The translations under genes were made by a program, and so were the position numbers. The notes under the pieces are model-generated. The model did not search any database and was not told the DNA's origin. It worked only from the letters and a program-made list of their open reading frames with translations. DNA of 64,000 bases. Origin: Bacteroidota bacterium. GTDB lineage: Bacteria > Bacteroidota > Bacteroidia > Chitinophagales > JADIYW01. Below are positions 60,228-64,000 of this stretch, piece after piece (position 1 is the stretch's first letter; every line of letters starts with the position of its first letter). The DNA lies in contig CAUJCO010000004.1 in assembly GCA_963169645.1 (NCBI GenBank), forward strand, positions 62,001 through 126,000, in the 5' to 3' direction.

Positions 60228-60280
60228 AATTAAAAGAATTCTTTGTATAATTGTTAAATAATCTGTGTAACAAATTTGGT

Positions 60281-61885
60281 ATGGCAACGATAAAAACGAA
60301 GATTAATGTAAACGCTACTTCTTATAAAGAAAATTATGCTTTGATGTTGGCTAAATTGGAAGAATTAAAAAAACATTTAAATCAATCACTTTATCAAGGA
60401 GAAGAAAAACACATCGCTAAAGCAAAAGCTGGTGGAAAATTTTTAGCAAGAGAACGCATCGACTTGTTACTCGACCAAGATTCTCCCTTTTTAGAACTTT
60501 GCCCATTAGCCGGATTAGGCGTAAAAGGCGGTTTTGGTACAGGTGGAACCATGGTTGCCGGCATCGGGTTTGTTTCCGGAAAAATGTGTTTAATTACTGC
60601 CAATGTTGGAACTAATAAAGGTGGTGCCATCGACATAGCATCTTTGAAAAAGGCTTTACGTATTGCAGAAATTGGTGCAGAAAATAATTTGCCCGGCATT
60701 AGTTTAGTGGAAAGTGCCGGAGCCAACTTACCTGACCAAGCACAAGTATTTAATTTGGGTGGTAATAATTTTAAAGAAATTACACGCCGTTCTAAAAAAG
60801 GCGTTCCCACTATTTCTATCGTATTCGGAAATTCAACTGCAGGTGGTGCGTATATTCCGGGCATGAGCGACTATGTTATCATGGTAAAAAATAATGCAAA
60901 AGTATTTTTAGCCGGACCGCCTTTAGTAAAAATGGCGACCAACGAAATAGTTGATGACGAAACCTTAGGTGGTGCAGAGATGCACTCTAAAATTTCCGGC
61001 GTTTCTGATTATTTGGCTCAAGATGAATTAGACGGCATTCGTATTGCAAGAGAAATCATAGACAATCTTCAAATTAAATCTGAAATAAAAAATCAAAAAT
61101 CTGAAATCTATAAAGAGCCAATATATAATATAGACGAACTACTCGGCATTGTTTCTGCCGACACCAAAATTCCATTTGATTGTCGGGAAGTAATTGCCAG
61201 AATTGTTGATGGTTCTGAGTTTCACGAATTCAAAAAAGATTATGGAACTACCTTAGTATGCGGATATGCTAAAATACATGGGTATCCAATAGCAATTATT
61301 GGCAACAATGGCGTTTTATTTAATGATTCTGCTAACAAAGGTGCTCATTTCATTCAGTTATGCAACATGAACCACACACCTATTTTGTTTTTACAAAATA
61401 TAACTGGATTTATGGTGGGCAAAGATTATGAACAAAATGGCATTATTAAAGATGGTGCTAAAATGATAAATGCCGTTTCCAACTCCGAAGTGCCTATGTT
61501 TACAATTATTATGGGTGCATCGTATGGCGCAGGAAATTATGCCATGTGCGGTAGAGCTTACAATCCAAGATTTTTATTTACATATCCAAATTCCATGATT
61601 GCTGTAATGGGTGCCGAGCAATTAGCCGGTGTGATGCAAATGGTGAGCAAAGAAAGTGCATTAAAATCCGGACAACCTTATGACGAAAACCAAGCGGCAC
61701 AAATGAAAGAATTTATGAAAATGGAAATTGAAAAACAAAGTAATGCATTTTTCGCCAGCGGTCAACTTTGGGATGATGGCATCATCGACCCAAGAGAGAC
61801 CAGAAATGTAATGAGTTTAGTATTAGCACTCACCTATCTAAATGAAATTAAAGGAACAAGTAGTTATGGCGTTTATAGAATGTAA
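60281..61885 (+). CDS. acyl-CoA carboxylase, carboxyltransferase (beta) subunit
   Basis: 534 residues from the ATG at 60281. Two crotonase-like halves: N-terminal FLARERIDLLLDQDSPFLELCPLAG, GNSTAGGAYIPGMSDYVIMV and LGGAEMHSKISGVSDYLA; C-terminal DCREVIARIVDGSEFHEFKKDYG, ITGFMVGKDYEQNGIIKDGAKMI, MGASYGAGNYAMCGRAYNPRF and PNSMIAVMGAEQLAGVM. It transfers CO2 from carboxybiotin to an acyl-CoA; the sequence fits methylcrotonyl/geranyl-type rather than propionyl-type, which is an inference. Between the halves, residues 267-278 (KSEIKNQKSEIY region) are translated heptanucleotide repeat. Confidence 0.9.
   Translation: MATIKTKINVNATSYKENYALMLAKLEELKKHLNQSLYQGEEKHIAKAKAGGKFLARERIDLLLDQDSPFLELCPLAGLGVKGGFGTGGTMVAGIGFVSGKMCLITANVGTNKGGAIDIASLKKALRIAEIGAENNLPGISLVESAGANLPDQAQVFNLGGNNFKEITRRSKKGVPTISIVFGNSTAGGAYIPGMSDYVIMVKNNAKVFLAGPPLVKMATNEIVDDETLGGAEMHSKISGVSDYLAQDELDGIRIAREIIDNLQIKSEIKNQKSEIYKEPIYNIDELLGIVSADTKIPFDCREVIARIVDGSEFHEFKKDYGTTLVCGYAKIHGYPIAIIGNNGVLFNDSANKGAHFIQLCNMNHTPILFLQNITGFMVGKDYEQNGIIKDGAKMINAVSNSEVPMFTIIMGASYGAGNYAMCGRAYNPRFLFTYPNSMIAVMGAEQLAGVMQMVSKESALKSGQPYDENQAAQMKEFMKMEIEKQSNAFFASGQLWDDGIIDPRETRNVMSLVLALTYLNEIKGTSSYGVYRM
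61079..61113 (+). repeat. heptanucleotide array inside the carboxylase beta gene
   Basis: Five 7-mers in phase: TCTGAAA, TAAAAAA, TCAAAAA, TCTGAAA, TCTATAA. Units TCTGAAA are also found in the intergenic arrays at 38850 and 62089. Confidence 0.75.
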
Positions 61886-61886
61886 T

Positions 61887-61949
61887 AGATATGAGATATG
61901 AGATATGAGATATGAGATATGAGATATGAGATTTGAGATTTGAGATTGA
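61887..61949. repeat. heptanucleotide tandem array after the carboxylase beta gene
   Basis: Nine units starting one base after the stop codon: six AGATATG, two AGATTTG, one AGATTGA. The rest of 61950-62088 is AT-rich without a gene. Confidence 0.92.
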
Positions 61950-62088: not shown

Positions 62089-62145
62089 TCTGAAATCATA
62101 ATTCATAAATCTGAAATAAATATGTCTCCAATCTCCAATCTCAAT
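62089..62145. repeat. heptanucleotide array spanning the start of the carboxylase alpha gene
   Basis: TCTGAAA, TCATAAT, TCATAAA, TCTGAAA, TAAATAT, then inside the gene TCTCCAA, TCTCCAA, TCTCAAT (with a one-base phase shift at the ATG). Confidence 0.75.
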
Positions 62146-64000
62146 ACCAATATAACTAAACTACTCGTTGCCAATCGTGGAGAAATTGCCATTCGCATTT
62201 TTAAAACCTGTCGAGAAATGGGCATCGCTACGGTGGCAGTCTTTTCCGATGCTGATGAGAATGCATTGTTTGTAAAATATGCTGATGAAGCTGTTCGCAT
62301 TGGTGGCAATCAAGCTGTCGAATCTTATCTTGTAATGGATAAAATTATTGCTGCAGCAAAAGCTACCGGAGCTAATGCCATTCATCCGGGTTATGGCTTT
62401 TTAAGTGAACGTGTAGAATTCGCACAACGTGTTATTGACGAAAATATTATTTGGGTAGGCCCTCATCCTAAAGCCATTGAAGTAATGGGCTCAAAAATTG
62501 GTGCAAAAAAAATTATGCAAGCACATCAAGTGCCAACCATTCCGGGCTATCAAGGCGACGACCAAAGCGAAGCCACTATCAAAGCAAAAGCGATTGAAAT
62601 TGGTTTTCCTGTTTTATTAAAAGCAAGTGCAGGCGGCGGCGGAAAAGGCATGCGTATCGTTCGAGAAGAAAAGGAAATAGACAAAGCCATCAGCGAAGCT
62701 AAATCAGAAGCATTAAATGGTTTTGGTGATGATACACTTTTGATTGAAAAATATTTTGATTCTGCACGTCATGTTGAGTTTCAAATTTTTGGCGATAAAC
62801 ACGGCAATGCACTACATTTATTTGAACGCGAATGCAGTATTCAACGACGTTATCAAAAAGTAATTGAAGAAAGTCCTTCACCTTTTATTACCGATGAAAC
62901 ACGTAAAAAAATGGGCGATGCTGCAGTTGCAGTATGTAAAGCTATTCAATACGACAATGCCGGAACCGTAGAGTTTATTGTGGCTCCCGACCAATCCTTT
63001 TATTTTTTGGAAGTCAATACACGCTTGCAAGTGGAACATCCTGTTACAGAAGAAGTAACCGGATTAGATTTAGTGCGTTTGCAAATTGAAGTGGCTGAAG
63101 GCAATCCAATTGCATTTAAACAAACCGACATTACACAAAACGGACATGCAATTGAAGTGCGTGTTTATGCCGAAGATCCGGCTAATAATTTCTTGCCTGT
63201 TACGGGAAAAATATTGGATTGGATTCCAGCTTCAATTTCCGGTTTGCGTTATGATACCGGCATTGAAAGTGGTTCTGAAATTTCTACATTTTACGACCCG
63301 ATGATTGCTAAAATCATTGCCAAAGGAAAAAATAGAAATGAAGCAATTAACAAGTTGACTTTAGCTATGCAAGAATTGGTGTTAACCGGATTTACAACCA
63401 ATAAAAATTTCTTGACAGCCATTTTACAAAATCAAGATTTTAGAAAGGGAGATTTTGACACACATTTCTTAGATAAAAAATTCAAGTACGAAGGTGAGAA
63501 ATATACACAAGAAACCTTGGATTTATTGACGTGTGCGTTGCAACATTATCGCTTTATACAACGAGAAAAAAACAGAACCTTGGCTCAAGGTGTTCCTGCC
63601 GGTTGGCGCAATAATCCATATCAGGCACAGCAAGAAAAATACAGTTACAACGGTTTTGAATTTACGGTTGCATATACGAATGAAAATGGAACTTTACAAA
63701 TCTCCTTTGCTAATAAGAATTTCACTTCTAAATTTATTACGCATCGCCTTGGTTCGTGTCCACACGAAACACATAGCCATGGTTCATTAAGCCATGGTTC
63801 GTGTCTTCACGAACCAATAACGCTTGAAATCAATAATATTCGTCGTCAATTTTTTGTTTCGCAAAATGGCAATCAATATTTTGTGCATGCAGCACAATTA
63901 GGACAAATCGTATTACAAAGTGTCGATAAATTTCCAAGTCCGATAGAAGAAACTGTAAAAGGCGGCTACATTGCACCGATGCCGGGTGAAGTAACCACTG
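62122..64000 (+). CDS. acyl-CoA carboxylase, biotin carboxylase/biotin-carrier (alpha) subunit, partial
   Basis: 626 residues visible, open at the window end. Biotin carboxylase: LLVANRGEIAIRIFKTCREMGI, AIHPGYGFLSERVEFA, the ATP-grasp loop KASAGGGGKGMRIV near residue 170, HVEFQIFGDKHGNALHLFERECSIQRRYQKVIEE and FLEVNTRLQVEHPVTEEVTGLDLV. A BT-type linker domain follows (about 450-600). The frame ends at YIAPMPGEV, the beginning of the biotinyl domain; the biotin Lys lies beyond the edge. It pairs with the beta subunit 236 bp upstream. Residues about 541-565 are a translated palindromic repeat. Confidence 0.93.
   Translation, partial: MSPISNLNTNITKLLVANRGEIAIRIFKTCREMGIATVAVFSDADENALFVKYADEAVRIGGNQAVESYLVMDKIIAAAKATGANAIHPGYGFLSERVEFAQRVIDENIIWVGPHPKAIEVMGSKIGAKKIMQAHQVPTIPGYQGDDQSEATIKAKAIEIGFPVLLKASAGGGGKGMRIVREEKEIDKAISEAKSEALNGFGDDTLLIEKYFDSARHVEFQIFGDKHGNALHLFERECSIQRRYQKVIEESPSPFITDETRKKMGDAAVAVCKAIQYDNAGTVEFIVAPDQSFYFLEVNTRLQVEHPVTEEVTGLDLVRLQIEVAEGNPIAFKQTDITQNGHAIEVRVYAEDPANNFLPVTGKILDWIPASISGLRYDTGIESGSEISTFYDPMIAKIIAKGKNRNEAINKLTLAMQELVLTGFTTNKNFLTAILQNQDFRKGDFDTHFLDKKFKYEGEKYTQETLDLLTCALQHYRFIQREKNRTLAQGVPAGWRNNPYQAQQEKYSYNGFEFTVAYTNENGTLQISFANKNFTSKFITHRLGSCPHETHSHGSLSHGSCLHEPITLEINNIRRQFFVSQNGNQYFVHAAQLGQIVLQSVDKFPSPIEETVKGGYIAPMPGEVTT
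63749..63816 (+). repeat. palindromic element in frame inside the carboxylase alpha gene
   Basis: Hairpin 1 is TTCGTGT cc ACACGAA (63753-63768) and hairpin 2 is TGGTTCGTG tctt CACGAACCA (63795-63816). GCCATGGTTC is directly repeated at 63776 and 63791. The frame stays open through it, encoding a His/Ser/Gly/Cys-rich segment unlike the rest of the protein. Confidence 0.8.

Follow-up and report, generated by a model that had tools for sequence, protein, structure and literature searches.

A probable tandem pair of Bacteroidota RAYT-associated REPs in frame in an acyl-CoA carboxylase alpha subunit

REPs of the GTAG and CGTC types are known from within conserved genes, where they often occur as pairs and contribute 20-30 residues without breaking the frame; otherwise they are intergenic and often located between convergent genes (Di Nocera et al. 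2013, PMC3733652). Two Xanthomonas species carry different REPs at about the same site of recB (PMC3733652). Palindromic elements in frame in proteins are also represented by RPE-1, RPE-4 and RPE-6, and RPE-4 and RPE-6 are of the CGTC type, a type with no known dedicated transposase (PMC3733652). With regard to Bacteroidetes, the part of Quentin et al. (2018, PMC6006769) devoted to RAYT subclass 2.6, which it equates with group 5 of Bertels et al., describes RAYTs flanked by atypical secondary structures without GTRG that are copied elsewhere in the genome. The same study's account of subclass 2.4 includes REPs within their own RAYT genes, i.e., in-frame REPs in a protein loop, as in the case presented here; the host is a transposase there and an unrelated enzyme here (PMC6006769). 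REPs inserted in frame into loops are reported in PMC3733652 as well.

Here, we investigate an in-frame insert in the alpha subunit of an acyl-CoA carboxylase encoded near the end of the window, i.e., of the whole analysed DNA stretch of 64,000 nucleotides. The relevant features are as follows.

60251..61885, plus strand: upstream carboxyltransferase (beta) subunit, 544 aa; ORF, assigned by sequence and gene order
62122..63999, plus strand: acyl-CoA carboxylase alpha subunit (biotin carboxylase, BT linker and BCCP), open at the window end; ORF with Pfam Biotin_carb_N, CPSase_L_D2 and Biotin_carb_C; full 684 aa taken from L063
63475..63999, plus strand: BT domain and beginning of BCCP in an AlphaFold2 model with a mean pLDDT of 83
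63739..63821, minus strand: region differing from the bare turn of orthologue G003 (from comparison with G003); holds two REP units in the same minus-strand orientation (loop n2GA, 3' tag CCATGGCT)
63753..63768, minus strand: REP hairpin 1, TTCGTG-TGGA-CACGAA, followed by CCAAGGC
63776..63785, plus strand: direct repeat GCCATGGTTC, copy 1; corresponds to a second CCATGGCT tag when read on the minus strand
63791..63800, plus strand: direct repeat GCCATGGTTC, copy 2; the tag of hairpin 2
63795..63816, minus strand: REP hairpin 2 with a 9-bp stem, TGGTTCGTG-AAGA-CACGAACCA, followed by TGGCTTA

An earlier note on this DNA had placed two palindromes and a direct repeat in frame at 63749-63816, and both the positions and the frame are borne out: the ORF starting at 62122 shows no break across the insert and runs past the window end to 684 aa. 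Read on the plus strand, palindrome 1 is TTCGTG-TCCA-CACGAA (63753-63768) with a 6-bp stem (7 bp including the loop-closing T-A), and palindrome 2 is TGGTTCGTG-TCTT-CACGAACCA (63795-63816) with a stem of 9 bp. Only one of the insert's three forward frames is open, which is the coding frame. The element-derived part covers residues 543-565 of the alpha subunit, close to the span of 541-565 given before. The window contains two exact matches of TTCGTGN4CACGAA, compared to 0.19 in shuffled windows with one mismatch allowed. By loop and tag, both palindromes share the same orientation, yet they are able to pair with each other. The pair thereby differs from a REPIN, i.e., an inverted REP pair forming one long hairpin. 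Target-site duplication and exact junction are not readable with confidence from the exchange of 22 nt in G003 for 82 nt here. We consider it likely that the insert is a tandem pair of REP units belonging to a Bacteroidota RAYT system, placed in frame in the alpha-subunit gene.

When folded as single-stranded DNA (DNA parameters), the insert is far more stable than shuffled sequences, with z about -5.3 and -5.6. Such strong predicted hairpins could alternatively act within the carboxylase transcript, i.e., on mRNA stability, pausing or termination, and a role on mRNA has been proposed for REPs of other bacteria (PMC3733652). Since the hairpins are located mid-gene instead of at the 3' end and G003 has nothing comparable, we regard an RNA-level role as improbable.

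To put the palindromes into a genomic context, we searched the genome (G000, 2.70 Mb, 14 contigs) for further copies. TTCGTGN4CACGAA is found 32 times exactly and 46 times when one mismatch is allowed, in contrast to 3 matches of the reversed control. For TTYGTGN4CACRAA, which admits the T-A variant at the third pair, 67 matches face a single control match. These counts rule out a chance palindrome. Besides a few isolated chance-like matches, the hits group into 11 regions. According to the ORFs read around each region, the alpha-subunit copy is the sole one within a conserved gene and every other region is intergenic, where gene calls are ORF-based and profile-checked only where a profile match is given. 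Flanking genes are convergent in seven of ten intergenic gaps (RAYT gap excluded), for which we estimate a chance of about 0.4% at a naive 25%; scripted probabilities were computed for 7/9 and 8/10 gaps. Once oriented, the units follow the consensus TTYGTG-n2GA-CACRAA for the hairpin with CCATGGCT thereafter. Other clusters of the genome commonly hold inverted REP pairs 30 bp apart. Among related genomes, the window palindrome is distributed patchily, with no copy in G003, 9 in G005 and 16 in G047. We also observed tandem arrays with units of 176-177 bp on contig C14 of G000 (L072:2172-4057), in which each unit carries one REP hairpin and the motif AGATTCTTCGCTACGCTCAGAATGAC, a second palindromic repeat.

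The dispersed nature of the repeat could raise the suspicion of an assembly artefact, or the gene could be decayed. Both are scarcely credible, since the site lies inside a 157-kb contig, the 684-aa frame is open with all domains and the MKM motif, and the insert is its own combination of hairpins, built from whole REP units with their tags, instead of a copy of another cluster. With frame and domains intact, a pseudogene is ruled out.

The genomic distribution also bears on the type of the element, for which the earlier note had drawn an analogy to Rickettsia palindromic elements. A palindromic element that normally resides inside proteins would agree with an in-frame location in a surface loop of a conserved enzyme, and the likeness to RPE-1, RPE-4 and RPE-6 extends to being palindromic and in frame. 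Copies in many coding genes, as typical for the Rickettsia elements, are not seen; there is one in-gene cluster and all other clusters of the genome are intergenic, which largely refutes this type. Furthermore, the sequence is a different one, the CGTC tag of RPE-4 and RPE-6 is missing, and the element is tied to a RAYT. We thus consider an RPE-like origin hardly tenable. As a cognate REP of a RAYT from the same genome, with its other copies there intergenic, the element is no protein-coding specialist.

The RAYT in question, P0001 (186 aa), is one of two Y1 transposase genes in G000. It is intact, lies within a palindrome cluster with palindromes on both sides, and adjoins radC (named from its sequence). 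Its score of 80.8 bits for NCBIfam REP_Tyr_transpos (NF047646) is just above the cut-off of 80. We find the motifs NHVH at 65, FWQ, YIHNNP at 142 and YSSA at 163, i.e., P0001 fits the motif set of RAYT subclass 2.6 / group 5 (NH[LIV]H, WQ, YIH[QN]NP, SS extension). The HuH-to-Y distance is about 77 residues, compared to a published median of 82. The feature of the subclass that hairpins flank the RAYT gene and recur elsewhere in the genome is present as well, and the aligned units and flanks show no GT[AG]G foot but the conserved 3' tag CCATGGCT in its place. Near the second Y1 transposase (C7:227164), there is no palindrome of the window family. G005 shows the same gene order around its RAYT, which is 78% identical (neighbour 76%), and this shared arrangement suggests that the RAYT was probably inherited vertically. 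Duplicated RAYT ends are found in both genomes, namely fragments of the 3' end beside the intact gene and each next to a palindrome (G000 C13:202839-203015, G005 C68:49741-49845).

We compared the hairpins flanking the RAYT gene in the ten genomes whose RAYTs are most similar (44-100% identity), i.e., G000, G005, G053, G041, G027, G023, G022, G030, G026 and G008. In all ten, the apex is GTG-n2GA-CAC or nearly so, and the lower stem varies between genomes with its pairing kept. Among 13 such hairpins, 99.1% of the cells hold standard pairs. Two-sided changes occur in six of the nine pairs and amount to 22 cells, compared to a shuffle mean of 4.8 (0/500 as high) and to 0-3 cells for slid-partner controls; the hairpins were picked by pairing, which favours this covariation result, but neither the shared unpaired n2GA nor the fixed apex was a selection criterion. 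G001 has a RAYT hairpin variant with a 5-nt loop, and the apex GTG-n2GA-CAC is absent next to more distant or other RAYTs, namely those of G006 (46%), G003 (44%), G056, G020 and G047. Since hairpins with a shared apex and a covarying stem enclose the RAYT in ten genomes, the window element is, judging from sequence comparison, the cognate REP of the P0001 RAYT and not a Rickettsia-type RPE.

In relation to the described systems, the locus thus resembles subclass 2.6 / group 5 as far as portrayed in PMC6006769: both concern Bacteroidota and agree in motifs, in a length of about 180 aa and in flanking hairpins without GTRG foot that are copied elsewhere. The subclass description therein gives no hairpin consensus, in contrast to the apex GTG-n2GA-CAC, the covarying lower stem and the tag CCATGGCT reported here, and it differs further in that one copy here is inside a metabolic gene. 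With the intragenic GTAG/CGTC REPs, the window shares an in-frame REP pair that is otherwise intergenic, but it lacks their GTAG or CGTC tag and its host is a carboxylase alpha subunit. Specifically, the window element has no unpaired GTAG end as in the GTAG super-family, nor the unpaired CGTC, TGTC or CCTC end with a stem starting from AT that characterizes the CGTC super-family. The in-frame copy as such is an intragenic REP pair, i.e., an already-known phenomenon. Concerning the earlier remark that no such description is known from acyl-CoA carboxylases of Bacteroidota, in-gene REPs are already known from other phyla (PMC3733652). What our data add is that in-frame REP insertion extends to a poorly described Bacteroidota RAYT class, and that this class obtains a defined hairpin consensus amenable to in vitro tests.

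Next, we turn to the protein. The alpha subunit carries its MKM biotin-attachment motif in the C-terminal biotin carrier part, and its nearest named relative is from a Chitinophagales MAG (71%). In a Foldseek search with the modelled BT region, MCC and PCC alpha subunits are the best matches. Within the AlphaFold2 model, the insert (model residues 91-110) is a low-confidence loop (pLDDT about 50) that connects strands 81-88 and 115-119 (pLDDT about 90). The insert is thus predicted to be a disordered loop linking two BT-barrel strands, in agreement with the location in a turn between two BT-domain strands that had been claimed beforehand.

We then aligned ten family orthologues with 65-90% identity to the window protein; those of G002 and G004 end before the turn and are uninformative. 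Within about 650 residues, the BT turn is essentially the sole place of an internal length change, the exception being four residues near the N-terminus of G001. The segment is missing in the closest orthologues: in G003, the closest one (90% identity), the turn is 20 residues shorter, and G003, G011, G009 and G012 share a bare turn of exactly equal length that is 60 nt shorter than that of the window. Their equal short length suggests that the bare turn is probably the ancestral state. Both refuting conditions named in the earlier note, i.e., an alignable segment in all orthologues and a lack of the palindrome elsewhere in the genome, thus turned out in favour of its reading as an inserted element.

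In the remaining orthologues, the turn is filled differently. Compared to the bare turn, the two RAYT REPs of the window add 20 aa. One alpha-subunit copy of G006 (G006a, +3 aa) holds a TGTC-tagged REP encoding HPELVSG, of which G006 has ten exact copies; its form TGTC-ATCCTGAA-CTTGT-TTCAGGAT fits the CGTC REP super-family. The second copy (G006b, +6 aa) holds a GTCGACG heptamer array of 3.9 copies. The two are encoded at L210 and L036 (C331, C7) with different repeats in the same turn, and the second may be a paralogue or stem from a mixed assembly. In G010 (+7 aa), a TTCACCG (CGGTGAA) heptamer array of 4.1 copies is found, and G005 (+15 aa) has a single-copy 6-bp palindrome. The turn of G001 (+3 aa) is non-repetitive. 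We had also considered the inserts of G010 and G005 as dispersed repeats and rejected both: TTCACCGTTCACCG occurs once in G010, leaving a local heptamer array only, and G005 has just one occurrence each of the palindrome TCTCGCTTAAGGCGAGA and the 3' part GGCGAGAGAGAAATC. Compared to the recB precedent, a single carboxylase turn here accommodates at least four repeat types, among them heptamer arrays.

The same comparison is informative on a possible function of the insert. It has five His and two Cys with the frame kept, and metal binding had been suggested on this basis; likewise, it could have been selected for partner binding. The turn of relatives lacks the insert or holds unrelated sequence, the loop is disordered in the model, and its residues follow from translating the palindrome in the sole open forward frame. 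With a peptide that is encoded by the palindrome, unconserved and modelled as disordered, metal binding finds no support, and none of our results requires the insert to be functional in the enzyme. Selection for enzyme function is accordingly rated very improbable.

With regard to the origin of the insert, we envisage that the hairpins were recognised by the RAYT, a HuH/Y1 single-strand nuclease, which assisted in their copying into the alpha-subunit gene. The copy would have survived by its length being a multiple of three, by its stop-free coding frame and by a turn that tolerates extra residues. In a disordered loop away from the catalytic domains, in-frame copies could persist, while those at other positions of the gene would disappear. 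The peptide LGSCPHETHSHGSLSHGSCLHEP would then be present in the enzyme, which would contain about 23 disordered residues derived from the element and remain functional. Recurrence at the BT turn would in this case reflect tolerance. Weighing against the RAYT reading are that neither a clean target-site duplication nor an exact junction is readable and that P0001 scores barely above its NCBIfam cut-off.

Another possibility, which we hold to be doubtful but worth considering, is that the REP entered the gene without transposase, i.e., through template switching, ectopic recombination or slippage, at a turn in which nearly any in-frame insert is tolerated. The heptamers of G006b and G010 are types without transposase and fill the same turn in relatives, such that tolerance together with recombination or slippage may suffice, and the turn also holds the TGTC-tagged REP (G006a) and the single-copy palindrome (G005). 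On the other hand, the window copy consists of whole tagged REP units like those at other sites of this genome, which has an intact RAYT, and this argues against entry without transposase. A stronger claim would be that the BT turn is a true capture hot spot, where unrelated dispersed repeats enter repeatedly in sister lineages via target preference or selection for longer disordered loops, and not by mere tolerance, such that the enzyme samples peptide loops from the genome's own repeats. We rate this as rather unlikely. The orthologue family shows the same turn either bare or filled by different repeats, which makes the fate and the cost of element-encoded peptides directly measurable.

Two minor observations concern further repeats. 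In G006, a 696-aa ORF on C317 (L193:170-2260) comprises two NAD-dependent epimerase domains that are joined in frame by a stretch, RHPELVSGS, encoded by one of the ten TGTC-type REP copies; two genes were apparently fused at this REP. Within the window, a tandem array of the heptamer AGATATG (8.6 copies, 61887-61946), which differs in sequence from the turn heptamers of G006b and G010, is located between the carboxyltransferase and alpha-subunit genes.
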